This document shows, one piece after another, positions 1,676 through 61,380 of a DNA stretch of 64,000 nt; position 1 is the stretch's first letter, and each line of letters opens with the position of its first letter. The position numbers and the translations under genes were made by a program. The stretch comes from Billgrantia campisalis (GTDB lineage Bacteria; Pseudomonadota; Gammaproteobacteria; Pseudomonadales; Halomonadaceae), in NCBI RefSeq assembly GCF_022341425.1, contig NZ_JABFUC010000004.1, forward strand, positions 124,001 to 188,000, written 5' to 3'. A model generated the notes under the pieces. It saw only the letters and a program-made list of their open reading frames with translations. It did no database searches and was not told where the DNA came from.

Positions 1676-2785
1676 TTAGTCGGCTCGCCGCTCCAGCAGC
1701 ACGCCGCACTCGCAGTGGTGCGTCCAGGGAAACTGGTCGAACAGGGCGAAGCGCGTCACCTCATGGGTCCGACAGAGTATCTCCAGGTTGCCCGCCAAGG
1801 TGTCGGGGTTGCATGAAATATAGACGATACGGCGATACTCGCTCAGTTGACGGCAGCTCGATTCGTCGAGACCGGCCCTTGGCGGGTCGACCAGCACGGT
1901 GGAAAAGTCGTGATCGCCAAGCGCCATCTCCGCCACCCGGCGACCGCCCTTGTCGCCCTTCAGCGCAGCGGCAAACTCTTCGGCGGACATCCGCGCCACC
2001 CGCACGTTGTCGATGCCGTTGGCCGCCAGGTTCTCTCGGGCGCTGGCCACCGAGGTGCGCGAGATCTCGGTGGCCAGCACGCGGCGAAAGTTCTCGGCGA
2101 GCGCGACGGTGAAGTTGCCGTTGCCGCAGTAGAGCTCCACCAAGTCGCCGCCCTGGCTGTGACGCGTCACCTCCCGGGCCCAGGCCAGCATGGCGCGGCA
2201 GATCTCGGCATTGGGCTGGGTGAAGCTGTTCTCCACCTGCTGGTAGCGAAACTCGCGCCCCTCCACCTCGAGCCGCTCCCACACATGATCACGCTCGAGC
2301 ACCAGGCGCTGCTTGCGCGAACGGCCGATGATCATGATACCCAGGCGCGCCTGGAGCTCGCGGGCCGCGACTTCCCAGGCGTCGTCCAGCGGTCGGTGGT
2401 AGATCAGCGTCACCAGCGTCTCGCCCGACAGGGTGGTGAGAAACTCGACCTGAAACAGCCGGCGCCGCAGCACCTGGCTCTCGAGCAGCGCCTCGCGCAG
2501 GCGCGGCATCAGCTCATTGATCGCCCGGCTCGCCACGGGATACTGGTCCAGGCGAATGACGTGCTTGCGCTTGGGGTCCTCGGGGTCGACCTCGAACATC
2601 GCATAGAAGAGGTCGTCCCCTTCATGCCAGACACGGAACTCGCAGCGCTGGCGGTAGTGGGTCGCAGGCGAGGCGAAGACCTCAAGCGGCGGCGGCGCGA
2701 AGCGCGCAAACTGCTGGATCATTCGCTCGCGCTTGGCGGCGAGCTGCTGGTCATATCGGCCGGGTTCGACAACGGGAAGGGACAC
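1676..2785 (-). CDS. trmA: tRNA (uracil-54-C5)-methyltransferase TrmA
   Basis: SAM-dependent enzyme that makes 5-methyluridine (ribothymidine) at position 54 of the tRNA T-loop. At 369 residues it matches E. coli TrmA (366). Visible motifs in order are the N-terminal QRCEFRVWHEGDDLFYAMF stretch, the SAM-binding ELYCGNGNFTVALAENF, DPPRAGLDESS, the catalytic cysteine in ISCNPDTLAGNLEIL, and the C-terminal HHCECGVLLERR with the family glutamate. It lies 39 bases downstream of murI on the same strand, so the two are probably co-transcribed. It has no iron-sulfur cysteine cluster of the RlmD kind, which favours TrmA over RlmC/RlmD. Confidence 0.96.
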   Translation of the reverse strand: MSLPVVEPGRYDQQLAAKRERMIQQFARFAPPPLEVFASPATHYRQRCEFRVWHEGDDLFYAMFEVDPEDPKRKHVIRLDQYPVASRAINELMPRLREALLESQVLRRRLFQVEFLTTLSGETLVTLIYHRPLDDAWEVAARELQARLGIMIIGRSRKQRLVLERDHVWERLEVEGREFRYQQVENSFTQPNAEICRAMLAWAREVTRHSQGGDLVELYCGNGNFTVALAENFRRVLATEISRTSVASARENLAANGIDNVRVARMSAEEFAAALKGDKGGRRVAEMALGDHDFSTVLVDPPRAGLDESSCRQLSEYRRIVYISCNPDTLAGNLEILCRTHEVTRFALFDQFPWTHHCECGVLLERRAD

Positions 2786-2824
2786 GGCATCTCCTGTCGT
2801 GTGCGGTGCAGGGGAAATCGGAAA

Positions 2825-3601
2825 TCAGCCGACGGCCAGCAGGCCCGGCTCATCGAAGGCATAGTGGGACAGCGCCCGGGCCAGGCGGGCATCGGGGGCG
2901 GTGGCGAAGCTCGGGTCGCGGCCCTGGCTCGGCGGTGGGTCGACCGCCAGCCGGGCGGCCCGCCGGGCGATGGCCTCGCCGGAGTCGACCAGGGTCACCG
3001 GGCGCGGCGCCGCCTCGGCGATCTGGGTGCGCAGCAGGGGAAAATGGGTGCAGCCGAGCACCACGGTATCCAGGTCCGGGGCGTCCCAGAGCGGCGCCGT
3101 GGCCTCGCGAATGATCGCGCGGTCCGGGGGCTCGCCGACCACCAGCCGCTCGGCCTGCCCCACCAGCGCATCCGCGGCGACGCGGGTCACCCGGCAGTCG
3201 GCGGCGAACTCCTGGATCAGCCGCTCGGTGTAGGGCCTAGCCACGGTGGCGCTGGTGGCCAGCAGGCCGATATGACGGCTGCGACTCATGCGGGCGGCTG
3301 GCTTGATAGCCGGCACCGTTCCCACCACCGGCACGCTCAGCCGAGCCCGCAGGGCATCCAGCGCCAGGGTGCTGGCGGTATTACAGGCCACCACCAGCAC
3401 GCCGCAGCGGCTGGCGGCCACCGCCGCCTCGCACACCGCCAGGATACGCGCCACCAGCCAGCCATCCGGACGAATGCCATAGGGCAGCATGGCGTTGTCG
3501 CAGGCATAGACCAGCCCCACGCCGGGCAGCCGCTGGCGCAGCGGCGCCACCACCGAGAGGCCGCCAACGCCGGAGTCGAAGATCAGTATCGGGCCGGGCA
3601 T
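2825..3601 (-). CDS. murI: Glutamate racemase
   Basis: Cofactor-independent racemase that supplies D-glutamate for peptidoglycan. The 258-residue product begins with IFDSGVGGLSV. The two catalytic cysteines sit in VVACNTASTLALDALR and VVLGCTHFPLL. The length is typical. The YACDNAMLPYG segment corresponds to the usual Y.(G/A)D....PYG motif. It is first in a two-gene minus-strand unit with trmA. A hemerythrin-like gene lies 98 bases upstream in the same orientation. Confidence 0.96.
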   Translation of the reverse strand: MPGPILIFDSGVGGLSVVAPLRQRLPGVGLVYACDNAMLPYGIRPDGWLVARILAVCEAAVAASRCGVLVVACNTASTLALDALRARLSVPVVGTVPAIKPAARMSRSRHIGLLATSATVARPYTERLIQEFAADCRVTRVAADALVGQAERLVVGEPPDRAIIREATAPLWDAPDLDTVVLGCTHFPLLRTQIAEAAPRPVTLVDSGEAIARRAARLAVDPPPSQGRDPSFATAPDARLARALSHYAFDEPGLLAVG

Positions 3602-3699
3602 GGCAAATGGACGGTCATGCAGGGTCGCTCCGCGGCAGTGAGCCGCCCATTCTACCAGCTACGCCGGCAACGGAAACACGCCGATGACCACCGCGCCCG

Positions 3700-4251
3700 T
3701 CAGGTGGCGGGCACGGGCGCCTCTCTCAGTTCGGCATAGAGCTCGGGGTAGGCCTCCTGCAGGCGCTCCAGCGCCGCTGTGGCCCCGTCGGGCAGAGCCT
3801 CGGCCAGACGCTCGAGGTCCTGATCGTCGAAGTGTTCGCGAATCAGCGGGAAGAGCAGCTCACGCTCATCGCGCAGGTAGGCGCGATGGGCATCCAGATA
3901 GGCCTTCAGATCCTCGGCAAAGCGGTCCATGGGAACCACCGCATCCATGAGGATCATGTCGAGGTCGTTGGACAGCCGCTTGAGCCGAGTGCGCAGCGCC
4001 TGGTAGTCGTTGCCGAGGCGCTCGGTGAGATCATTGCTCTCGGGCGCCAGGGTCTGCAGGCGCTCGGTACAGATCCGTTCCAGAGGAACGGTGAAGCCCT
4101 CCATATAGTCAAGGATATAGTCGACCACCTCCCGAACCAGTTGAAAGTTGGGGCGATCGCCGGCCGCCAGCGCCTTCTGCTTGAGCTGAAGGACGTGCAA
4201 CATGCGCGCCATGTTGGCATGATCCCGACGCAGTTGGGTCAGCATGGGCAT
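3700..4251 (-). CDS. Hemerythrin-like four-helix protein with most iron ligands missing
   Basis: A 183-residue, helix-rich cytoplasmic protein. The N-terminus (LRRDHANMARMLHVL) and the C-terminal helix (AHRAYLRDERELLFPLI) match bacterial hemerythrin HHE-domain proteins of about this length. These retain a histidine at about residue 11, a histidine at about 122 and a glutamate at about 129. The central HHPxE segment, expected near residues 54-58, reads TVPLER, with both histidines lost. The EH motif of the third helix reads NDY. A normal di-iron site therefore looks unlikely. The start has a strong GAGGAGG ribosome-binding site 7 bases upstream. The gene diverges from rarA. Its function is unknown; it may be a structural or sensory derivative. 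Confidence 0.75.
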   Translation of the reverse strand: MPMLTQLRRDHANMARMLHVLQLKQKALAAGDRPNFQLVREVVDYILDYMEGFTVPLERICTERLQTLAPESNDLTERLGNDYQALRTRLKRLSNDLDMILMDAVVPMDRFAEDLKAYLDAHRAYLRDERELLFPLIREHFDDQDLERLAEALPDGATAALERLQEAYPELYAELREAPVPAT

Positions 4252-4477
4252 GTCGAAGCCTCCTCATTCCATCGGATGGGCGAGCGTATAGTGGTTGGAT
4301 ACGCGCCACGGTTACGGGTTCATTGTGACACCTTCAGCTGCCGGCGTCGTACCCGGCTCCGGTGCTGTTACACCCTAGCGCCTATGGAGCGACACCGCAC
4401 ATCGCCCAAGGTCGTATTGCCATCAAGAGCCTAACCTGATTTGACCACCCCGACACCACCGCTGCAAGGAGATCATG

Positions 4478-5818
4478 ATGGACCTGTTCGGTGAGGCGCG
4501 CCGCGACGCGGCCCCCCTGGCCTACCGGATGCGCCCCCGCCGCCTGGATGACTATGTGGGCCAGCAGGCGCTGGTGGGGCCCGGCAAACCCCTGCGCCGG
4601 ATGGTCGAGACCGGCACCGTCCGCTCGATGATCCTGTGGGGGCCGCCGGGGGTGGGCAAGACCACCCTGGCCGAGATCCTGGCAACGGAGTCCGGCTCCC
4701 GCCTGGAGCGGTTGTCGGCGGTGATGGCCGGGGTCAAGGACATCCGTGAGGCGGCGGCCCGGGCGGGCGTCGCCCGCGACCAGGGCCAGGCGACCCTGAT
4801 GTTTCTCGACGAGATCCACCGGCTCAACAAGAGCCAGCAGGACGCCCTGCTGCCCCACGTGGAGTCGGGACTGCTGACGCTGATCGGCGCCACCACCGAG
4901 AACCCCTCCTTCGAGGTCAACTCGGCGCTGCTCTCCCGGGCCCCGGTCCATGTGCTCGCCCCCCTCTCCGAGCAGGAACTGATCCAGGTGATGCGCCAGG
5001 CGCTGACGGACGGCGAGCGCGGGCTGGGGGCACGACGCATCGCCGTGACGGAGGAACTGCTCGAGCGCATGGCCCACGCCGCGGCGGGAGACGCCCGTCG
5101 TGCCCTGGGCCTGCTGGAGAACGCCTGCGATTTCACCGTCGCCGAGGATGGCGGCGAGCGCCTGCCGCCGGAAGCCCTGGAGGCCGCCCTGAGCCACCGG
5201 ACCAGCGCCTTCGACAAGCAGGGGGACTACTACTACGACCTGCTCTCGGCGATTCACAAGTCGGTGCGCTCCTCGCGTCCCGACGCCGCCCTGCTCTACA
5301 TCGCCCGTTTCGTGCAGGGCGGCGGCGACCCGCTGGACGTGGTGCGACGGCTGGCGGCGATCGCCTCGGAAGACGTCGGCAACGCCGACCCGCGCGCCCT
5401 GCCGCTGGTGATGGCCGCCTGGGAGGCCTACCGACGCCTGGGGGATTATGAGGGCCAGCGCGCCATCGCCCATGCGGCGATCCACCTGGCCGTGGCGCCC
5501 AAGAGCAACGCCGTGGAACGTGCCTGGAAGGCGGCCCAGGCCTATGTGGCGGCCCAGCCGAGCGTGGAAGTGCCCACTTACCTGCGCAATGCGCCAACCA
5601 AGCTGATGGCCTCGCTGGGCCATGGCCAGGGCTATCGCTATGCCCACAGCGAACCCCACGGCTACCCGGCCGGCAGCGACCATGACTGCTGGCCGGACGG
5701 CCTGCCGCGGGCCAGCTTCTACGAGCCCAGCGACCATGGCCAGGAGAAACGCTATGGCCAGATGATGGCCTGGCGGGCCCAGCTCGACGCCGAGGCGGAT
5801 GGGGACGGCGACGCCTAG
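4478..5818 (+). CDS. rarA: Replication-associated recombination protein A (RarA/MgsA AAA+ ATPase)
   Basis: Clamp-loader-like AAA+ ATPase acting at stalled replication forks. The product has 446 residues, with Walker A GPPGVGKTTLAEIL, Walker B FLDEIHRLNKSQQDAL, sensor 1 GATTENPSFE, the sensor 2/lid arginine GDARRALGLLE, and the family's C-terminal tetramerisation region (YLRNAPTKLM). Two in-frame ATGs occur in tandem. The second (4478) lies 6 bases after AAGGAG and gives MDLF, as in Pseudomonas homologues, so it was chosen. It is followed convergently by lolA, consistent with the conserved rarA-lolA-ftsK block. Confidence 0.96.
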   Translation: MDLFGEARRDAAPLAYRMRPRRLDDYVGQQALVGPGKPLRRMVETGTVRSMILWGPPGVGKTTLAEILATESGSRLERLSAVMAGVKDIREAAARAGVARDQGQATLMFLDEIHRLNKSQQDALLPHVESGLLTLIGATTENPSFEVNSALLSRAPVHVLAPLSEQELIQVMRQALTDGERGLGARRIAVTEELLERMAHAAAGDARRALGLLENACDFTVAEDGGERLPPEALEAALSHRTSAFDKQGDYYYDLLSAIHKSVRSSRPDAALLYIARFVQGGGDPLDVVRRLAAIASEDVGNADPRALPLVMAAWEAYRRLGDYEGQRAIAHAAIHLAVAPKSNAVERAWKAAQAYVAAQPSVEVPTYLRNAPTKLMASLGHGQGYRYAHSEPHGYPAGSDHDCWPDGLPRASFYEPSDHGQEKRYGQMMAWRAQLDAEADGDGDA

Positions 5819-47406: not shown

Positions 47407-48285
47407 TCAGCCTTTTACCGAACCGGCGGTCAGGCCGCGGACGAAGTACTTGCCGGCCAGCACGTAGACGATCAGCGTGGGCAAGGCAGCAATCATGGCC
47501 GCCGCCATGTCGACGTTGTACTCGCGGGTACCGGTAGAGGTGTTGACCAGATTGTTGAGTGCCACCGTCACCGGCTGGGTATCGTGAGCCGAGAACGCCA
47601 CTCCAAACAGAAAGTCGTTCCAGATCTGGGTGAACTGCCAGATCACCGAGACCACGATGATGGGCGCCGAGACCGGCAGCAGGATGCGCCAGAAGATGCG
47701 GAAGAAGCCGGCACCGTCGAGCTTGGCCGCCGAGACCAGCTCGGTGGGCACCGCCACGTAGAAATTGCGGAAGAACAGCGTGGTGAAGGCGATGCCGAAG
47801 ATCACATGCACCAGGATCAGCCCCGCCCGGGAACTCGACAGCCCCAGCCAGCCCAGGGTCTGGGCCATGGGCAGCAGCACCACCTGGAAGGGAATGAAGC
47901 AGCCGAACAGCATCAGGGCGAAGAGCAGCTCCGAGCCCCTGAAGCGCCACTTGGTCAGGGCGTAGCCGTTGAGCGCCCCCACTACCGTGGAGATCAGCAC
48001 CGCGGGCACCACGATGGCAATGGAGTTCCAGAAGTACCCCCCCACCCCTTCGCAGCGCATGCCGGTGCAGGCCTCGCCCCAGGCCTTGATCCAGGGCTCC
48101 ACGGTGGGCGATTGGGGCAGCGACAGCAGGGTGCCGGGGCTGATCTCATGGAGCGGCTTGAACGAGGTGATCAACATGACCACCAGCGGCAGCAGGTAGA
48201 AGAGCGCGGCGAGCAGCAATACAGCATAGACCGCCGCCCGGCCCAGGCGGGCCCCAGGCGTGCGGCGCCGAATCACGTTATCCAT
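47407..48285 (-). CDS. Carbohydrate ABC transporter permease, MalG type (GtsC-like)
   Basis: A 292-residue inner-membrane permease with about six helices. The EAA coupling loop, facing the ATPase, reads ELVSAAKLDGAGFFRIFWRI with LPVSAPIIVV after it. AVYAVLLLAALFYLLPLVVML is the first helix. It overlaps the upstream permease gene by 8 bases and has GAGGAG before its ATG. The substrate is inferred from the neighbours, not from this protein. Confidence 0.92.
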   Translation of the reverse strand: MDNVIRRRTPGARLGRAAVYAVLLLAALFYLLPLVVMLITSFKPLHEISPGTLLSLPQSPTVEPWIKAWGEACTGMRCEGVGGYFWNSIAIVVPAVLISTVVGALNGYALTKWRFRGSELLFALMLFGCFIPFQVVLLPMAQTLGWLGLSSSRAGLILVHVIFGIAFTTLFFRNFYVAVPTELVSAAKLDGAGFFRIFWRILLPVSAPIIVVSVIWQFTQIWNDFLFGVAFSAHDTQPVTVALNNLVNTSTGTREYNVDMAAAMIAALPTLIVYVLAGKYFVRGLTAGSVKG

Positions 48286-49210
48286 GTTTGCGACTCCTCA
48301 GCTCGGAGTAGAGATAGGGAATCAGGATCGCCAGCACACCGCCCAACATCAGCATGGCGCTGGCGGACCCCAACCCGATCTGTGCCCGGGTGAAGGCATG
48401 GGTGTACATGAAGGTGGCCGGCAGGTCGGTGGCATAGCCGGGTCCGCCACCGGTCAGGGCCACCACCAGATCGAAGCTCTTGATGGCGATGTGCGACAGG
48501 ATCATCACCGCGCTGAACACCACCGGGCGCAGGCAGGGCAGGATCACCCGCAGATAGACACGCGGCAGGCTGGCGCCATCGAGCTGGGCGGCCTTGATGA
48601 TGCTGTCGTCGATACCGCGCAGGCCGGCCAGGAACAGCGCCATGACGAAGCCGGACGCCTGCCACACGGCGGCCAGTACCAGGGTGTAGATCGCCATGTC
48701 GGGATCAACGATCCAGTTGAAGGTGAAGCTCTCGAAGCCCCAACTGCGCACCATGGCCTGGATACCGAGCCCGGGGTTGAGCAGCCATTTCCACACCACC
48801 CCGGTGACGATGAACGACAGCGCCATGGGATAGAGATAGAGGGTTCGCAGCGCCCCCTCCTGACGGATACGCTGGTCGAGCAGGATGGCGAGCACCACCC
48901 CGATGACCAGGCAGATCGCCACGAACAGGCCGCCGAAGATCACCAGGTTGGTGGACGCGACCCACCAGCGGTCGTTGGCCATCAGCCGCGCATACTGGGC
49001 GAAGCCGACGAAGTCGTAGCTCGGCAACATCCGCGAGCTGGTCAGTGAAAGCACGAAGGTCCAGAGCATGAAGCCATAGACGAAGAACAGGGTGATGGCG
49101 ATGGAGGGCGCCAGCACCAGCCGCGGCAGCCAATCCTGCAGGTGTGCGGCAGCGGTACGCCGTGCCGCGGGGCGCGCGGGGCGCTCCTGGGCGTGGGAAA
49201 CGATGGTCAT
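48278..49210 (-). CDS. Carbohydrate ABC transporter permease, MalF type (GtsB-like)
   Basis: A 310-residue permease with about six helices (LVLAPSIAITLFFVYGFMLW first). The EAA loop is SIIKAAQLDGASLPRVYLRV. It lacks the large periplasmic insertion of E. coli MalF, as is usual for monosaccharide CUT1 systems. It lies 93 bases downstream of the binding-protein gene and overlaps the next permease. Confidence 0.92.
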   Translation of the reverse strand: MTIVSHAQERPARPAARRTAAAHLQDWLPRLVLAPSIAITLFFVYGFMLWTFVLSLTSSRMLPSYDFVGFAQYARLMANDRWWVASTNLVIFGGLFVAICLVIGVVLAILLDQRIRQEGALRTLYLYPMALSFIVTGVVWKWLLNPGLGIQAMVRSWGFESFTFNWIVDPDMAIYTLVLAAVWQASGFVMALFLAGLRGIDDSIIKAAQLDGASLPRVYLRVILPCLRPVVFSAVMILSHIAIKSFDLVVALTGGGPGYATDLPATFMYTHAFTRAQIGLGSASAMLMLGGVLAILIPYLYSELRSRKHG

Positions 49211-49303
49211 GGGAAAATACCTCGGGCGTGAACGAAAGCGTCGCCTGACAGCCGGCCGGGCTCGATGGGCATCGAGCCCGGCAGATTCCGGGAAAGCGGC
49301 GGC

Positions 49304-50641
49304 TCAGAGCGCCGCTTGCGCCGCGTTCACCATGCGCTGGGCGGCCTGCTCGGCCTCCATGTCGCGGGCATTGAAGTAGTTGGTCACGACGTCGAAGATC
49401 GCCCCCTGCACGTCGGCGCGCACGGCCATGCCGTGGGCCATGCTGGGCACCAGGCCGCCCTCGTCGGCAGTACGCTGGAAGTCCGCCAGGGACTGCCGGG
49501 CGCAGACATCGAACTCGCTCATGTCCAGGTCGGGCCGCGCGGGTATCGAGCCCTTGGCCAGGTTGAAGGCCTCCTGGAAAGTGGGCTCCAGCACCAGCCG
49601 TGCCAGGGCCTGTTGCGCCTCGTGCGCTTCGCCCTCGACGCGGAACATCGCCAGGCTGTCGATGTTGAAGGTGAAGGCGTCGACGGTACCCGGCGCGGCG
49701 GCGCAGAGATAATCCTCGCCGGCGGTAAGCTCGGCAGCGGTGAACTCGCCCTTGGCCCAGTCGCCCATCAATTGCATGGCGGCATCGCCGTTGATGACCA
49801 TGGAGGTGGCGATGTTCCAGTCACGCCCGGACATGTCGTCGTCCATCAGCCCGCGCAGGCGCTTGAAGGTCTCCAGCGCCTCGACCATCTGCTCGCTGCC
49901 CAGGGCCTCGGGATCGAGATCCACCAGGGCCCGCTGGAAGAATTCCACCCCTCCCGTCGCCAGCAGCACGGTCTCGAACACCGTGGCGTCCTGCCAGGCC
50001 TGCCCGCCGTGGGCCAGCGGAATGAAGCCCGCCTCGCGGATTGCCTCCCCGGCGACGAACAGCTCATCCAGGGTGGTGGGCATCTCGACACCGGCCTGTT
50101 CGAGCACGTCCGGGTTGGCCCATAGCCAGTTGACCCGGTGGACGTTGACCGGCACGGCCACGTACTGGCCATCGTAGCGCATGATATCGGCCACCGTTGC
50201 GGGCAGCAGCTGGTCCCACCCCTCTGCCTCGGCGACGTCGTCGAGGGTACCGAGCAGGCCCAGCTCGCCCCACTCCTGGATCTCCGGCCCCTTGATCTGG
50301 GCCGCCGAGGGCGGATTGCCGGACATGGCCCGGGACTTGAGTACCGTCATGGCCGTCTCGCCGCCACCACCGGCGACGGCGAAATCCTGCCAGCCGTACC
50401 CCTCGGCCTCCATCAGATCCTTGAGCACGTTGGCGGCCCGGGCCTCGCCACCGGAGGTCCACCAGTGCAGCACTTCCACTTCACCGGCGGCATGGGCGCT
50501 GGTCAGGGACACGGAAGCGGCCAGGGCCGTGGCCAGGGCGAGACCGGCCCTGGTGAACGGTGTCTTTTTCCAGCGGGCCTGGCTCATACGGGCTTGGTCA
50601 AAACGGCTACTGGTGCAATCGTTCGACTTGCAGGAAGGCAT
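49304..50641 (-). CDS. Sugar ABC transporter substrate-binding protein (GtsA-like, probably glucose/mannose)
   Basis: A 445-residue periplasmic binding protein. A long signal region ends [18 protein letters not shown], followed by mature [18 protein letters not shown], typical of the glucose/mannose group. Further features are [32 protein letters not shown] and [13 protein letters not shown]. The ATG at 50641 has GAGGAG 7 bases upstream. The extra 31 residues before MSQARWKK are odd for a signal peptide, so a start near 50587 is possible. The neighbouring two-component genes match the Pseudomonas gltR-gtrS-gts arrangement. Confidence 0.9.
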
Positions 50642-50763
50642 GGCGTGTCTCCTCGTGTTGTTATGGCTCCGGCGTGGCACCGGATAACGACACGCTACCC
50701 CAGGCAGCGCAACAGGAGGGGTTACCTAGTCCTGCGAAGTATTGGCATCGTATTGATGAAATA

Positions 50764-52251
50764 TTACAGCCCGGTAATATCCTGCATCCGGGGCAGCGTC
50801 ACACGCACCCGCAGCCCGCCCTCGGGGTGGTTATCAAGGCCGATATCACCACCCAGGGCGCGGGCGATATGCCGGGCGATACCCAGCCCCAGGCCGCTGC
50901 CGCCGGTATTGCGGCTGCGGGAGGGCTCGAGCCGGACGAAAGGCGAGAAAACGCGCTCGCGCTGCCCCTCGGGGATGCCCGGCCCATGATCGCGAATGGT
51001 GATCGCCAGGCGGCTGGCACCGTCTTCCAGCAATACCTCGGCTCGCCGTCCATAGAAGACGGCATTCTCCAGCAGGTTGGCCAGACAGCGCTTGAACGCC
51101 AGCGGCTTGACGGCCAGCGGTTTAGCCTGCCCCTGGATCGACACCTCCCCTCCCTGCAGGCGCAGCCCCTCTGCCAGCTCTTCGAGAACGTGGCCGGGAT
51201 CGATCTCCTCGACCGGCTCATGCAGGTCAAAGCCCTTGACCGACGCCAGCGCCCCCTTGACCAGCAGGTCGAGCTCATCGAGGGAGGCGCAGAAGCGCTC
51301 GCGCTGCAGCGGATCGTCGAGCATCTCGGCCCTCAGCCGCATACGGGTGATGGGGGTCTTGAGATCGTGTGAAATGGCCGAGAAGAGCCGCTCGCGCTCG
51401 TCGACCTGCGCCCGGATGCGCTCCTGCATGCGGTTGAAGGCCATCGCCGTGGCCATCACCTCCCTGGGGCCGCTCTCGCGCAGCGGCGGTGCATCCAGGT
51501 CGTCGCCCAGCTGACGTGCCGCCCGGGAGAGACGGGCCAGCGGCCGGGTGACGCCGCGGATGCCCAGCAGCGAGAGCCCGATCACCGTCAGCAGCACCAT
51601 CAGCCCGGCGAGCAGGCGCTCGCCGGAGAGCCAGCGATACTCATTGAACAGGTCCGCCACCGGCAGCAGGGTCGCCACGTAGAGCCAGGTGCCGGGCTCG
51701 AGCTCCAGCTGTACCACCAGGATCGGAGGAGAGAGCGGCTCCATCAGCAGGCTGTGCTGACCCCAGCGCGGCGGCAGGTCGTGCAGCAACACCTCGTTGT
51801 TGTAGACCCGCAGGGTCTCCGCCCGGGAGAACTCCACCAGCACGTCATCGATGCTGAGCTCGCGCTCAAGAATGCTGCGAAAGTTGCCGACCACCAGCGC
51901 CTTCTCCTCCCCCGAGCCGATGTCCTCGACGGGAATACGGCGCTCGTTGACGCTGACGAAGAAGCGAGTACCGCCCATGTTGCGCAACTGGTCGAGCACG
52001 ATATGGCGATACTCGAAGGGCAGCGAGCGGAAGAAGCGCATGGTCGAAGCCACGCTGTAGGCGACATTTTGCGACAGCTCGTCGAGCTGCTCAAGCTGGC
52101 TGGAGCGTACCTGGGAGGTCCAAACGGCGTAGCTGGAGAGCTGGGCGGCGAGCACACCGATGATCATGATCAGCACGAAGCGACCGCGCAGCGTCCCGGG
52201 CAGGCCACGGGCCAGGCACCGCCGCCACCGCTGCCAGCGGGTATCTCTCAC
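50764..52251 (-). CDS. Sensor histidine kinase (GtrS-like)
   Basis: A 495-residue inner-membrane kinase. TM1 is about 23-44, a periplasmic sensor domain spans about 45-210, TM2 about 212-231, then a HAMP domain. The phosphoacceptor is in FSAISHDLKTPITRMR (His295), and the ATPase domain has NLLENAVFYG, DHGPGIPEGQRERVFSPF and GGSGLGLGIARHIA. The GTG start overlaps the response-regulator stop. By position and pairing it corresponds to Pseudomonas GtrS, which senses 2-ketogluconate or 6-phosphogluconate; that ligand is an inference here. Confidence 0.92.
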   Translation of the reverse strand: MRDTRWQRWRRCLARGLPGTLRGRFVLIMIIGVLAAQLSSYAVWTSQVRSSQLEQLDELSQNVAYSVASTMRFFRSLPFEYRHIVLDQLRNMGGTRFFVSVNERRIPVEDIGSGEEKALVVGNFRSILERELSIDDVLVEFSRAETLRVYNNEVLLHDLPPRWGQHSLLMEPLSPPILVVQLELEPGTWLYVATLLPVADLFNEYRWLSGERLLAGLMVLLTVIGLSLLGIRGVTRPLARLSRAARQLGDDLDAPPLRESGPREVMATAMAFNRMQERIRAQVDERERLFSAISHDLKTPITRMRLRAEMLDDPLQRERFCASLDELDLLVKGALASVKGFDLHEPVEEIDPGHVLEELAEGLRLQGGEVSIQGQAKPLAVKPLAFKRCLANLLENAVFYGRRAEVLLEDGASRLAITIRDHGPGIPEGQRERVFSPFVRLEPSRSRNTGGSGLGLGIARHIARALGGDIGLDNHPEGGLRVRVTLPRMQDITGL

Positions 52252-52973
52252 GACAGCGCTTCGACCCGGGCGGTGAGCACATAGCCCGCCCCTCTCACGG
52301 TGCGGATCAACTGATGGTGCTGGGCATCTTCACCGAGCCGCTGGCGCAACCGGCAGACATGCACGTCGATGGAGCGATCCAGCGGCGGCGCTGGCCGCCC
52401 ACGGGTCAGTTCGAACAGGGCGTCCCGGGAGAGCACCTGTTCGGGGCGTTCGAGAAAGACCTGCAACAGCTGGAAATCGGCACCGGAGAGCGGTGTACGT
52501 AGCTCCTGTTGATCGATCAATTCCCGGGTCATGCGATCCAGACGCCAGCCGCCGAAGCTGACCAGCCGCGCGCGTGCCGGGTCCTGAGACTGCTGGTTGC
52601 CCCGCACACGACGCAGTACCGCCTTGATACGCGCCAGCAGCTCCCGGGGATTGAACGGCTTGCCGAGGTAATCGTCCGCCCCGAGCTCCAGGCCCAGAAT
52701 GCGATCGGTCTCGTCGGCGCTGGCGGTCAGCATGATGATCGGGACCTGGCTGTCCCGGCGTACGTCGCGGCAGATGGTGAAGCCGTCATCGCCGGGCAGC
52801 ATGATATCGACGATAAGCAGATCGGGGATCTCGTGAGCCAGCAGGCGATGCAGCGCCTCGGCATCCTCCGCGACCAGGGCACGGTAGCCGTGGCGACCGA
52901 GGTAGTCGGCCAGCAGTTCGCGGATCTCGGGGTCGTCGTCGACCACGATCAGGGTGGCAGGCGTCGTCGTCAT
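52248..52973 (-). CDS. OmpR-family response regulator (GltR-like)
   Basis: A 241-residue regulator. The receiver domain has the acidic pair DDD (about 12-14), phosphorylation site Asp56 in LLIVDIMLP, Thr83 in IIMLTAS and Lys105 in DYLGKPFNPREL. The C-terminal winged helix includes TPLSGADFQLLQVFLERPEQ and DVHVCRLRQRLGED, ending GAGYVL. It is translationally coupled to the kinase. It most likely controls the adjacent sugar ABC operon in the manner of GltR; direct evidence is lacking. Confidence 0.93.
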   Translation of the reverse strand: MTTTPATLIVVDDDPEIRELLADYLGRHGYRALVAEDAEALHRLLAHEIPDLLIVDIMLPGDDGFTICRDVRRDSQVPIIMLTASADETDRILGLELGADDYLGKPFNPRELLARIKAVLRRVRGNQQSQDPARARLVSFGGWRLDRMTRELIDQQELRTPLSGADFQLLQVFLERPEQVLSRDALFELTRGRPAPPLDRSIDVHVCRLRQRLGEDAQHHQLIRTVRGAGYVLTARVEALS

Positions 52974-53103: not shown

Positions 53104-53901
53104 TTATATTTCGAACCGTTTCCGCAGCGACGCGGCCACGCCCACCTCGGCATGGTGGCCGATACGGCGTGCGTGGGGCACGCGCCCGGGAAGGTCGGGA
53201 TGGGCATTGGCCATCACATGGGCCTCACCGGCCAGCGCCAGCATCTCGGTGTCGTTGAGGTTGTCGCCGAAGGCCAGACAGGCCTCGGGCCCGAGCCCCA
53301 GGGCATCAAGCAGCGAGGCCAGTGCAGTGCCCTTGTTGACCCCGCCGGCCATGATCTCCAGCGAGTTCACCGTCGAATAGGTCACATGCAGTCGCTCGCC
53401 GTGCTGCTCGCGAACCCGGGCCTCGAGCCCGGCCAGCCGCTGGGGCTCGCCGATATAGAGCACCTTCCCCACCCCCTCGCTGGCCAGCTCACCGGGCTCA
53501 GCGACCCGGTAGCCGAACCCGGTATGGGCATGCATGGCCAGCAGGCCCGGGTCGGGGGCATCAATCAGCCATTCGTGCTCATGGTAAAGATTGAGCCGCA
53601 CGCTGGAGGGGCGCTCCAGGGCAATCAGCTCCCGGGCCAGCTCGCTATCGAGATGGCGTGCGGCCAGCAGGTCACCTTCGGGGCCGTGCAGGTAGGCGCC
53701 GTTGGTGCTGATGATATGAATCGGCACCCTGAGCCGGTCGCGAAACGCCAGCATATCGCGGAAATGCCGTCCCGAGGCGAAGGCTAGGTGGTGCCCCCGC
53801 TCGGCCAGGGCCCGCAGGGTATCGATGGTTGCCGGATCCAGGTCGTGATCGGCCCCCAGCAGGGTGCCGTCGAGGTCGGAGACGATCAGGCGTGGGGTCA
53901 T
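53104..53901 (-). CDS. Cof-type HAD-IIB hydrolase (sugar-phosphatase-like)
   Basis: A 265-residue haloacid dehalogenase-superfamily phosphatase. Motif I is LIVSDLDGTLLGADH, motif II LAFASGRHFRDML, the motif III lysine lies in GGVNKGTALASLL, and motif IV is CLAFGDNLNDTEML. A IIB cap lies between motifs II and III. Related E. coli enzymes (YbjI, SupH, YidA) dephosphorylate sugar phosphates and flavin mononucleotide. Lying between the glucose-uptake regulator and the GlcNAc PTS operon, it might relieve sugar-phosphate stress. Confidence 0.92.
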   Translation of the reverse strand: MTPRLIVSDLDGTLLGADHDLDPATIDTLRALAERGHHLAFASGRHFRDMLAFRDRLRVPIHIISTNGAYLHGPEGDLLAARHLDSELARELIALERPSSVRLNLYHEHEWLIDAPDPGLLAMHAHTGFGYRVAEPGELASEGVGKVLYIGEPQRLAGLEARVREQHGERLHVTYSTVNSLEIMAGGVNKGTALASLLDALGLGPEACLAFGDNLNDTEMLALAGEAHVMANAHPDLPGRVPHARRIGHHAEVGVAASLRKRFEI

Positions 53902-54030: not shown

Positions 54031-54060
54031 GGACCGGCCCCGAGTGATCGGGGCCGGTCC
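54031..54060 (-). terminator. Strong hairpin ending the nag operon
   Basis: GGACCGGCCCCGA, loop GTGA, TCGGGGCCGGTCC: a perfect 13-bp stem 20 bases after the nagE stop. No T-run follows, so termination may be partial, or the stem may protect the 3' end. Confidence 0.6.
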
Positions 54061-54079
54061 TGGGGGCACGATGGCTAGC

Positions 54080-55789
54080 TTAGGCGTTGCCCAGCCCTCG
54101 GGCCACGGCGGCGGCCCGTTCGCCCAGCAGCACATGGATCACGCCCTGCTCCAGGCGCTGTACCGCCCGGGCACCGAGGTCGCTCAGGGCCGCCTCGTCC
54201 AGGGCCTCGGTATCGGCCAGCTCCAGGCGCAGCCGGGTGGCGGCCACCGCGGTGGCGCTGCGCAGATTGGCCGCGCCCCCCAGGGCCCGGTGCCAGGCCT
54301 GGCGCGCCTGGGGATCGAGAGCCTCGGCCGGCTCGCCGGACGACTCGGACGCCGGCACCTTCGCGGACGCGGCAGCGGGCACCGTGCCCTCGGCGGCCAT
54401 GGCGGCGCGGATCTCATCCGCCACCCCATCCGCGATCGGGCCCAGGATCACCTGCAGGCCACCGCCCTGGAGGCGCAGGATACCCCGGGAGCCCAGCGCC
54501 TTGAGGGCCGCCTCATCGATAACCTCGGGGTTCTCCAGCACCAGGCGCAGCCGGGTGGTGCAGGCACCGACGCTGGCGAGGTTGCCCGCCCCGCCCAGGG
54601 CGGTGACGAAGGCCGGACCACGCTCGCCGGCGGCGGCCTGGGTCGCGGCGGGTGCCGCGCTCTCCGGTTCGCGGCCCGGGGTGGGCAGGTCGAAGCGCAG
54701 GATGGCCCAGCGGAACACCGTGTAGTAGAGGGCGAAGTAGGCCAAACCCACCGGCAGCATCAGCCAGCCATTGGTGGAGAGGCCATAGGAGAGCGCGAAG
54801 TCGAAGGCGCCGGCGGAGAAGGTGAAGCCGAGCTTGACGTCGAGCCAGTGCAGCAACGCCATGGAGACACCGGTCAGCACGGCATGCAGGCCGTAGAGCA
54901 GCGGCGCCAGGAACATGAAGGTGAACTCGATGGGCTCGGTGACCCCGGTCAGGAAGGCGGTCAGCGCCAGGGACAGCAAGAGGCCACCCACCTGGGCACG
55001 ACGCCCCTTGGGCGCGGCGTGGTACATGGCGAGTGCCGCCGCCGGCAGGCCGAACATCATCACCGGGAAGAAGCCCGCCATGAAACGCCCCGCGGCGGGA
55101 TCGCCGGCGAAGAAGCGGTTGAGGTCGCCGCTGGCCACCACCCCGGAGGCGGCCTCGAAGCTGCCGAAGACGAACCATACGAGGCTGTTGAGCACATGGT
55201 GCAGGCCGGTGACGATCAACAGGCGATTGAGCACCCCGTAGACGAAGAGCCCCAGCTCGCCGGCGTCGATCAGCCACTGGCCGAGGGCGTCGATGCCGTG
55301 CTGGATGGGCGGCCAGACCACCCCGAAGGCGACCCCCAGAGCCACGGCGGCCAGGCCCGTGGCGATGGGCACGAAGCGCCGCCCGCCGAAGAAGGCCAGG
55401 TACTCGGGCAACTGGATCGCCTTGTAGCGGTTGTAGAGCAGCCCCGCCACGCAGCCGATGATGATGCCGGCCAGCACCCCCATATTGATCTCGGGATTGA
55501 GGGCGGTGAGCACCGCATCCAGCACCAGGTAGCCGATCACCCCGGCCAGGCCGGCGGCGCCGTTGTTGTCGTCGGCGAAGCCCACCGCCAGGCCGATGGC
55601 GAAGATCAGCGCCAGGTTGGCGAAGATCGCCTCGCCGGCACTGGCGATAAAGGCGATATCCAGCAGGTCGGGTTGGCCCAGGCGCAGCAGCAGGCCGGCG
55701 ATGGGCAGCACCGCGATGGGCAGCATCAGGGAGCGGCCGAGCCGCTGTAGTCCGCCCATCAGGCGGGGTCCCAGGGTCATGGAAGACAT
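54080..55789 (-). CDS. nagE: N-acetylglucosamine PTS permease, EIICB with an extra EIIB-like domain
   Basis: A 569-residue PTS membrane permease of the glucose/GlcNAc class. The EIIC domain (about 1-370) has MLPIAVLPIAGLLLRLGQ, NRLLIVTGLHHVLNSLVWF, TGVTEPIEFTFMF and LSTNGWLMLPVG. EIIB follows with the phosphocysteine in SVGACTTRLRLVL (Cys410). About 105 residues later a second EIIB-like domain reads TAVAATRLRLEL, with alanine (516) in place of cysteine. The EIIA domain is absent and supplied by the upstream fusion. ATG at 55789 has GAGAGG 7 bases upstream and lies one base past the nagF stop. Confidence 0.92.
   Translation of the reverse strand: MSSMTLGPRLMGGLQRLGRSLMLPIAVLPIAGLLLRLGQPDLLDIAFIASAGEAIFANLALIFAIGLAVGFADDNNGAAGLAGVIGYLVLDAVLTALNPEINMGVLAGIIIGCVAGLLYNRYKAIQLPEYLAFFGGRRFVPIATGLAAVALGVAFGVVWPPIQHGIDALGQWLIDAGELGLFVYGVLNRLLIVTGLHHVLNSLVWFVFGSFEAASGVVASGDLNRFFAGDPAAGRFMAGFFPVMMFGLPAAALAMYHAAPKGRRAQVGGLLLSLALTAFLTGVTEPIEFTFMFLAPLLYGLHAVLTGVSMALLHWLDVKLGFTFSAGAFDFALSYGLSTNGWLMLPVGLAYFALYYTVFRWAILRFDLPTPGREPESAAPAATQAAAGERGPAFVTALGGAGNLASVGACTTRLRLVLENPEVIDEAALKALGSRGILRLQGGGLQVILGPIADGVADEIRAAMAAEGTVPAAASAKVPASESSGEPAEALDPQARQAWHRALGGAANLRSATAVAATRLRLELADTEALDEAALSDLGARAVQRLEQGVIHVLLGERAAAVARGLGNA

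Positions 55790-59433: not shown

Positions 59434-59443
<10 letters not shown>
58424..59443 (-). CDS. nagB2: SIS-domain glucosamine-6-phosphate deaminase (NagB-II type)
   Basis: A 339-residue protein of two SIS domains resembling the isomerase half of GlmS. VARGSSDHAASYFAYQCMKR, LAVSQSGQSPDLVATQQ and AGEEKSVAATKSYLASL mark the first domain. VIGRGAGLAVAQEAALKFKE and SFSGAEVRHGPMALI mark the second, ending HLNKVTCTL. No glutaminase domain is present, so in this context it deaminates glucosamine-6-phosphate to fructose-6-phosphate. ATG at 59443 has AGGAG 7 bases upstream and overlaps the nagA end by 10 bases; longer frames are nagA shadow. Confidence 0.93.
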
Positions 59444-60558
<1,115 letters not shown>

Positions 60559-60566
60559 AAGGCCTC

Positions 60567-61301
60567 CTAGCGGGTCAGCTCGACCATAAAGTCGTAGTAG
60601 TCGGTGCGGCAGTAGGTGACGGTGAGCTCCGCCGGGGTGCCGTCGGCGAGATAGCCCAAACGGGTCACCTTGAGCAGCGCCTGACCCTCCGGCACCTCGG
60701 CGAGTGCGGCCAGCTCGGCGTCAGCATTGATGGCGGTGACATGCTGCAGGGCCCGGGCCACCCGCTTGCCGCTGGCCTCCAGCACCGCGTAGAGGGAGGT
60801 CTCCACCGCCCCGGGGTCGGGCAGCACCGCCGCCGGCAGGCAGCTCTCCTCCACCGCCATCACCACCCCGTCGGCCAGGCGCAGGCGCTTGAGGCGCGCC
60901 ACCCGGGCATCGGCACCCAGTCCCAGGCGCATGCCTTCCTCCACGCTGGGGTTGGCCAGGCGGCGCTCCAGCCAGTGGGAGCTGGGGGTGAAGCCGCGCT
61001 GGGTGAGCAGCTCGGTAAAGCTGGAGAGCCGCGACAGGGACTGGTTGAGTCGCGGGGTAATAAAGGTTCCGGAGCCGTGGCTGCGGCGGATCAACCCCAG
61101 CTCCGCCAGGCGATCCAGGGCCTTGCGGGCGGTGATCCGCGACACCGCCAGGCTCTCGGCCAGGTTGCGCTCCGAGGGCAGTGCCTCGCCGGCCTGCCAG
61201 GCGCCGGTCTCGATGGCCTGCTCGAGCTGACGGGCCAGCTGCTGGTAGAGGGGGGTCGCGCCCTGGGGGTCGAGGCGCAGCTGGGTAAAGCGAGGGTCCA
61301 T
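60567..61301 (-). CDS. GntR/HutC-family regulator of N-acetylglucosamine use
   Basis: A 244-residue regulator. The winged helix is PLYQQLARQLEQAIETGAW with SERNLAESLAVSRITARKAL and GLIRRSHGSGTFI. The C-terminal UTRA effector domain (about 95-240) contains LKVTRLGYLADGTPAELTV. ATG at 61301 has AGGGAGA 5 bases upstream. It is the first gene of the nag operon, and four ATACCA hexamers lie just before it, so autorepression lifted by GlcNAc-6-phosphate or glucosamine-6-phosphate is the likely logic. It is comparable to NagQ or NagR of other proteobacteria. Confidence 0.92.
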   Translation of the reverse strand: MDPRFTQLRLDPQGATPLYQQLARQLEQAIETGAWQAGEALPSERNLAESLAVSRITARKALDRLAELGLIRRSHGSGTFITPRLNQSLSRLSSFTELLTQRGFTPSSHWLERRLANPSVEEGMRLGLGADARVARLKRLRLADGVVMAVEESCLPAAVLPDPGAVETSLYAVLEASGKRVARALQHVTAINADAELAALAEVPEGQALLKVTRLGYLADGTPAELTVTYCRTDYYDFMVELTR

Positions 61302-61330
61302 GGGTCTCTCCCTGCCGGGGGGTAGTAGCA

Positions 61331-61380
61331 ATACCAATTAAATACCACTATAGACACATACTGATACCAATAAAATACCA
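61331..61380. promoter_or_regulatory. Four phased ATACCA boxes (putative NagQ/NagR operator)
   Basis: ATACCA starts at 61331, 61342, 61364 and 61375, all in one 11-bp register with the slot at 61353 empty. On the operon strand this is two copies of TGGTAT(T/C)-N4-TGGTATT-like sequence. I recall TGGTATT-N4-TGGTATT as a GlcNAc-regulon box in Xanthomonas. The DNA is AT-rich within a GC-rich genome and lies 30-79 bases upstream of the regulator start. Confidence 0.75.

Follow-up and report, generated by a model that had tools for sequence, protein, structure and literature searches.

The GlcNAc-type PTS permease NagE of Billgrantia campisalis carries, behind its catalytic EIIB domain (B1), a second EIIB domain (B2) that has no cysteine. 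B2 is kept in many relatives, and in almost all of them the gene of a fused phosphoryl donor (EIIA-HPr-EI) adjoins; this distribution suggests a docking module rather than junk. Hence, we propose that B2 may be an old, folded, non-catalytic EIIB copy that acts as a dock for this donor, a reading to which we give about an even chance. All positions refer to the window, i.e. the whole stretch of 64,000 nucleotides that was analysed (Table 1).

Table 1. Location of nagE, its domains and key residues, and the genes upstream of it, numbered from the first nucleotide of the window.
Feature	Position	Strand	Basis
nagE, GlcNAc-type PTS permease, EIIC-EIIB-EIIB, 569 aa	54080..55789 (start 55789, stop included)	-	TIGR01998
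EIIC domain, ~residues 12-375	54665..55756	-	PF02378 at 19-307; helical in model
B1, catalytic EIIB, ~residues 390-466	54392..54622	-	PF00367 at 394-425; secondary structure
Cys410 codon, phosphocysteine of B1	54560..54562	-	Cys in 170/170 aligned rows, window included
B1-B2 linker, residues 467-492, fast-evolving, low model confidence	54314..54391	-	dN/dS; predicted structure
B2, cysteine-less EIIB, residues 493-567	54089..54313	-	PF00367 match; predicted fold; Cys count
Val515-Ala516 codons, two candidates for the lost cysteine position	54242..54247	-	Motif spacing; alignments
Arg519-Leu-Arg521 of B2, equivalent to Arg413/Arg415 of B1	54227..54235	-	Spacing-11 copies: R519 83/83, R521 82/83
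His552 of B2 (B1 counterpart Gln446)	54134..54136	-	His in 121/129 B2 copies, Gln in 8/129
Fused EIIA-HPr-EI phosphoryl donor, 867 aa	55791..58394	-	Pfam domains; directly upstream of nagE
EIIA domain of the donor, sole PF00358 match in the genome	58002..58370	-	PF00358; aligned to E. coli EIIA-Glc
GntR-like regulator	60567-61337	same as nagE	Named by eye from sequence
nagA	59434-60558	same as nagE	Named by eye from sequence
SIS-domain deaminase-like gene	ends 58424	same as nagE	Named by eye from sequence

NagE scored 633.6 bits against TIGR01998 (GlcNAc PTS IIBC), above the curated cut-off of 553.2, and Pfam recovered PTS_EIIC together with two separate PTS_EIIB stretches. A search of the whole genome with the protein (E <=0.001) gave one match. 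The gene is the last of a same-strand run (GntR-like regulator, nagA, SIS-domain gene, EIIA-HPr-EI donor, nagE), in which a single base separates the stop of the donor from the start of nagE; this operon of nagR-, nagA- and SIS-domain-like genes (named by eye) would be consistent with the transport of GlcNAc by NagE. An alignment of the donor's EIIA domain with E. coli EIIA-Glc showed (counted by eye) that it keeps the two histidines and two aspartates known as active-site and interface residues.

The original prediction, that the second EIIB of NagE is devoid of the phosphocysteine, was confirmed: the protein has cysteines at residues 113 and 410 only and none within residues 487-569, which makes a phosphocysteine in B2 impossible, whatever the alignment. 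The placement of Ala516 at the cysteine position, also claimed there, stood only in part. The B1 motif GACTTRLRL, which holds Cys410, has its copy 106 residues further as AVAATRLRL, where Ala516 lies three residues before Arg519, as Cys410 does before Arg413; thus, Ala516 occupies the cysteine position only if the motifs are anchored on the arginine. The Asn-to-Arg spacing is 11 in B2 (N508-R519), whereas the first EIIB has 10 in all 170 aligned rows; the B2 motif is hence one residue longer than that of B1. Val515 is the residue that falls opposite the cysteine both in the domain alignment and in a profile alignment to PDB 3bp8, which makes Ala516 or Ala517 the insertion.

That the rest of the fold is kept was borne out by structure prediction. 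PF00367 matched B2 alone at 30.4 bits (cut-off 27) and 23 of 25 B2 copies at E <=0.01, a threshold at which B2 matched no other Pfam family. The isolated domain was modelled (from an alignment of 25 B2 copies) with a mean pLDDT of 95.5, and in the model of full-length NagE (from 74 sequences, i.e. 73 of 77 candidate rows plus the window) the blocks of B2 reached pLDDT values of 88 to 97. The predicted domain superposed on E. coli EIIB-Glc (3bp8) with a Z of 14.2 and an rmsd of 1.2 for 73 of 75 residues, and the range over 3bp8, 3bp3 and 1o2f was narrow (Z 13.6 to 14.2, rmsd 1.1 to 1.2, 73 residues). B2 is confidently predicted to retain the EIIB fold. A chance or frameshift artefact was ruled out, as the frame is open and homologous and the domain is present in 129 of 170 rows.

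Relatives were gathered through whole-genome searches across the family, order, class and phylum, and through one scan of named genomes, from which the best 80 of at least 585 relatives were kept. Within the family, 49 of 121 genomes (the window's own included) had a NagE match at E <=1e-60, and loci were taken from 30 of these 49. The alignment comprised 170 rows after the removal of identical proteins (window included), a sample that leans to B2 carriers because the query itself carries B2. A readable B2 was found in 129 rows, none in 40, and in one further row (locus L070) the domain was cut by the contig end. The cysteine is gone from B2 in 121 of the 129 copies when its position is anchored on the arginine (three residues before it, R-3), and in 115 when it is anchored on the asparagine, since to the eight copies with Cys at R-3 are added six of the 83 with spacing 11 (L032, L033, L040, L174, L176, L178) that have Cys at R-4, the N-anchored position.

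Two types of B2 were distinguished by the Asn-to-Arg spacing. In the named-genome set, the spacing-11 type belongs mainly to Halomonadaceae, Burkholderiaceae and Chromobacteriaceae, and the spacing-10 type mostly to Alphaproteobacteria. The residue at R-3 is Ala in 82 and Ser in one of the 83 spacing-11 rows; the 45 spacing-10 rows have Ala (11), Cys (8), Arg (7), Leu (5), Val (4), Asn (3), His (3), and Gly, Lys, Ser and Tyr (one each), and L090, which lacks the Asn anchor, has Arg. Caulobacter and Pseudovibrio are among the alpha-type copies with the cysteine kept in B2. By eye, spacing 11 and Ala were also read in four plasmid copies of the PtsG type, of which two belong to the alphaproteobacterium Azospirillum. 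Altogether, the pseudo-EIIB was found in three proteobacterial classes (alpha, beta and gamma) and once outside them, on a Gemmatimonadota plasmid, and the record names ('subunit IIBC') do not reveal the extra domain. In a tree of EIIC plus B1 (102 rows below 90% identity) all the spacing-10 rows and L090 form one group of 38 (100*), inside which 18 changes of the residue at R-3 were counted over 37 rows; Cys versus not-Cys in B2 changes 6 times over the 78 rows with B2. The tree of the EIIB domain (77 columns) has one starred branch only.

The beta/gamma (spacing-11) copies combine the one-residue insertion and the alanine with invariant G504, G505, N508, R519 and H552. In 36 non-redundant beta/gamma NagE-type rows (from which the PtsG-type L032, L175, L176 and L178 were left out) seven positions, G504, G505, N508, A516, R519, R521 and H552, are identical in 36 of 36. 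The Ala516 codons of the 83 spacing-11 copies are mixed (GCG 39, GCC 33, GCA 6, GCT 4; Ser once), which indicates that the codon often changed silently and the residue was almost never replaced, and the adjacent residue 517 varies freely. The conservation of the alanine in relatives, proposed as a check on the original prediction, is thus borne out for this type, whereas in the spacing-10 copies the position is labile; Ala516 as a universally conserved residue was rejected. His552 is present in all 83 spacing-11 copies, and its B1 counterpart is Gln in 169 of 170 rows, with one truncated row as the exception.

Rates of evolution were compared in 38 family sequences (280 pairs with an overall dS of 0.15 to 0.8). 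The median dN/dS, calculated with each segment's own dS, was 0.129 for EIIC, 0.166 for B1 and 0.362 for B2, and 0.532 and 0.713 for the linkers before B1 and B2, respectively; with the overall dS of the pair, the values were 0.107, 0.181 and 0.544 for the domains, and 0.878 and 1.063 for the linkers. By own dS, none of the 280 pairs exceeded 1 in B2, and 69 of 280 did so in the linker before it. B2 is under purifying selection in the beta/gamma-type family sequences, and it evolves two to three times as fast as B1.

The alpha-type rows have a labile motif and eroded copies, and only six of their B2 positions are conserved at >=90% (A502, G504, G505, N508, R519 and A559). In the Neisseriaceae bacterium JH1-16 (L084) the motif half of B2 was lost, the segment around the His552 equivalent was kept, and the donor gene adjoins. 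The B2 of Pseudovibrio (L098, 3998-5656) has its cysteine intact and is 67% identical to its own B1. This protein groups (99*) with Azospirillum NagE proteins that have neither B2 nor donor, and has an EIIA-to-EI donor itself; judging from these sequences, that its B2 was re-made by a fresh duplication is a fair reading, and gene conversion is another.

These data bear on whether B2 is a largely functionless leftover of a tandem duplication that is in decay. The dN/dS of B2 above that of B1, the 18 letter changes in the alpha-type motif and the half-deleted copy of L084 are what such decay would produce; however, no pair of B2 sequences has a dN/dS above 1, seven positions are fixed in the beta/gamma NagE-type rows, the domain persists in most of the (albeit B2-biased) sample, and the Pseudovibrio copy, located beside an EIIA-to-EI donor, resembles a fresh one, so we consider a remnant improbable. 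Random degradation in relatives, which had been named, together with a truncation without effect, as grounds for abandoning the idea of a functional domain, was absent from the beta/gamma-type and was partly seen in the alpha-type and in L084.

The presence of B2 follows that of the fused donor gene. An EI domain lies directly upstream, in the same orientation, in 127 of 129 genes with B2 versus one of 40 without it; the one exception among the latter is L084 with its half-deleted B2, and the truncated row L070, set aside from this comparison, has EI upstream as well. The two B2 genes without an adjoining EI are both from Aquitalea (L053, with only 1,062 bases available upstream, and L069). 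EIIA and EI share one open frame in 69 of the best 80 named-genome loci (L084 included), and HPr scored above threshold in 38 of these 69. As for the rest, L046 has EIIA and EI split over two frames, seven loci (L070, L081, L089, L096, L103, L109, L114) have a partial EI near the contig end, and no EI was found at L053, L056 and L069. Loci with short flanks showed the EI end only; for four of them, longer or similar stretches (L179-L184) contained EIIA plus EI in six of six. The Paludibacterium locus (L056), which has no B2, shows a regulator-nagA-SIS-nagE run without a donor gene, and donors are present elsewhere in this genome and in the other six genomes searched.

A further check made use of 15 plasmid loci, hand-picked from 47 records to span organisms, in which B2 was judged by eye. 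All 15 agreed with the rule that a second EIIB goes together with a fused donor within 4 kb in either orientation, and 12 of 15 with the stricter first rule (EI upstream in the same orientation), the exceptions being L194 (a separate EI upstream, no B2) and L195 and L197 (B2 with a divergent donor). Both features were found in eight loci (three of Novosphingobium, two PtsG-type of Azospirillum, and those of Gemmatirosa, Caballeronia and Paraburkholderia), B2 being much eroded in two from Novosphingobium (L192, L200). Neither was found in seven: three Azospirillum NagE loci, Haliovirga (separate HPr, EI and EIIA genes upstream, no B2), Cetobacterium, Deinococcus (EIIA fused to the permease, HPr and EI separate) and Tsukamurella (split domains).

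The genus Azospirillum has permeases of both kinds. Its NagE proteins (L190, L191, L201) have one EIIB and no adjoining donor gene; in other species of the genus, the PtsG-type permeases (L195, L197) have a second EIIB, and a fused donor gene adjoins in divergent orientation. Such a set of related permeases that differ in B2 would be suited to direct comparison.

We stress that the number of evolutionary events behind the association is small. On a tree of 116 rows (L203 left out, the plasmid rows given their states by hand) there were 5 changes of B2 and 6 of the donor, and in four independent pairs on starred branches the two changed in the same direction in 3.4 of 4 on average, and in the opposite direction in 0.1. 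The 4-5 independent switches of B2 are too few for the association with the donor to reach statistical significance (the sign test gave a median p of 0.25, with values of 0.125 to 0.625), for which at least six pairs would be needed. Moreover, adjoining genes do not prove contact between their proteins, and it is from the predicted fold, the kept rim residues and a presence that tracks a fused trans-acting donor, as opposed to a cis-fused EIIA or separate components, that we infer a docking of the donor by B2.

Dead enzyme copies under selection are usually scaffolds or regulators. B2 might serve as a spacer or as a module for structure or oligomerisation, stabilising the cytoplasmic end of NagE without touching the donor, as a separate domain, predicted to be well folded and set on a fast-evolving linker, would allow. 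We regard this as unlikely, since former active-site positions (R519, R521) and their neighbours (N508, H552) are conserved, and from a bare spacer one would not expect a distribution that follows the architecture of the donor. The conserved rim would also suit a regulatory or sensing domain, which would tune uptake through binding that depends on the phosphorylation state (to a regulator, EIIA or some other protein), in the manner of EIIB-Glc and Mlc; the predicted B2 fold does match EIIB as found in complex with Mlc (3bp8, Z 14.2), but 3bp8 is just one among the available EIIB structures, the regulator of the operon is GntR-like and not Mlc-like (by eye), and regulation does not predict a link to the fused donor, so that we rate this role as quite unlikely. 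Among the roles offered in the original prediction (regulating the permease, holding EIIA in place, sensing the phosphorylation state), nothing found spoke for the first or the last in particular, and the holding of EIIA, or of the donor that contains it, is favoured indirectly by the donor association, the conserved former active-site residues and the precedent of FruA.

That B2 is still phosphorylated, on His552 in place of the lost cysteine, and serves as a side reservoir or relay appears highly improbable: although His predominates here in B2 (121 of 129 copies) and Gln in B1 (169 of 170 rows), and the B2 arginines are kept, seven of the eight Cys-keeping alpha-type copies also have this His, which consequently did not arrive with the loss of the cysteine, and the PtsG-type plasmid copies seem to have Asp there (by eye). 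A His552 acceptor gained upon cysteine loss is therefore unsupported.

In the PTS, the phosphate of PEP travels via EI, HPr and EIIA to the cysteine of EIIB, and from there to the sugar. We pair the donor with NagE because of the single EIIA in the genome and the gene order. In this pairing, the fused EIIA-HPr-EI protein would phosphorylate Cys410 of B1, from which the phosphate would move to GlcNAc in EIIC. With B2 as a donor dock, this domain would accept no phosphate on cysteine and would provide a second EIIB-like contact surface, formed by the rim of the old active site (N508, R519, R521, H552), by which the large trans-acting donor may be tethered or oriented. B2 would stand where the enterobacterial NagE has its covalently fused EIIA, and we infer that its contact with the donor raises transfer or affinity. 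If B2 does dock the donor, this would explain how a large trans-acting donor offsets the missing cis-fused EIIA. The EIIB-Glc residues that touch EIIA were looked for without result.

The closest precedent is FruA of the fructose PTS. In E. coli FruA the extra IIB copy lies on the opposite side of the permease from the B2 of NagE, and the same arrangement was found in the FruA-like frame of the genome studied here. Published accounts describe duplicated IIB domains in cognate FruA transporters, both required for full activity in E. coli (PMC2405797), and an extra IIB that takes no part in phosphoryl transfer, yet is needed for full activity (PMC2405797, PMC6872149). FruA (E. coli, Pseudomonas) resembles NagE in its second IIB copy, and would also do so in having a multidomain donor (FruB) if the adjacent EIIA-HPr-EI protein serves NagE; it differs in that its IIB is of the Fru family (PF02302), whereas B2 belongs to the Glc family and matches PF00367 only. 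Thus NagE has the second copy in the same polypeptide that typifies FruA, and not the Fru-family sequence; a search of the genome with PF02302 returned the FruA-like frame only. This FruA-like protein (L189, G000:C45:85500-91200, frame 2663-4894) has two PTS_IIB domains, the first with Cys in a changed motif (CPSGMATT vs CPTGVAHT). As its first IIB keeps the cysteine, it seems that in the FruA family this residue may be kept or lost, as in the alpha-type NagE.

The enterobacterial NagE (EIIC-EIIB-EIIA, of relatives that are presumably Enterobacteriaceae) has homologous EIIC and B1 domains and falls under the same model (TIGR01998), but carries a C-terminal fused EIIA where the NagE of the window has B2. 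E. coli EIICB-Glc (PtsG; PDB 3bp3, 3bp8, 1o2f) has an EIIB fold equal to that predicted for B2; it differs in having one EIIB, with the phosphocysteine, and a separate EIIA-Glc, B2 being without Cys and having the longer motif. NagE of Ralstonia eutropha H16, known here by description, is paired (nagF-nagE) with a fused EI-HPr-EIIA donor, as is the NagE of the window, and the part of the account available describes it as EIIBC and leaves a second EIIB unmentioned (PMC3222305). Among the open-access matches listed (mostly titles) there was no account of the existence, spread, residue pattern or donor link of B2 in the Glc/GlcNAc family, and it may be that the EIIB duplication in this family was reported earlier in a subscription journal. 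A non-phosphorylated extra IIB is already known for FruA, and, among the open-access matches listed, the Glc/GlcNAc-family case is apparently a new variant.

We tentatively extend the dock to a general PTS rule, which is possible and which we would not yet lean on: permeases served by a one-protein EIIA-HPr-EI donor may retain an additional EIIB, in most cases without the cysteine, for docking, in both the Glc/GlcNAc and the Fru families, the pseudo-domain being kept, lost or re-made (Pseudovibrio) together with the fused donor.

An open frame of 568 aa (window 54044-55750, + strand) runs antisense to nearly all of nagE and is probably a by-product of the high GC content. Downstream of nagE (48278-52973 and 53104-53901, - strand) Pfam identified a HAD-type hydrolase (Hydrolase_3); the sequences of further genes there resemble, by eye, those of a response regulator, a histidine kinase and components of a sugar ABC transporter.
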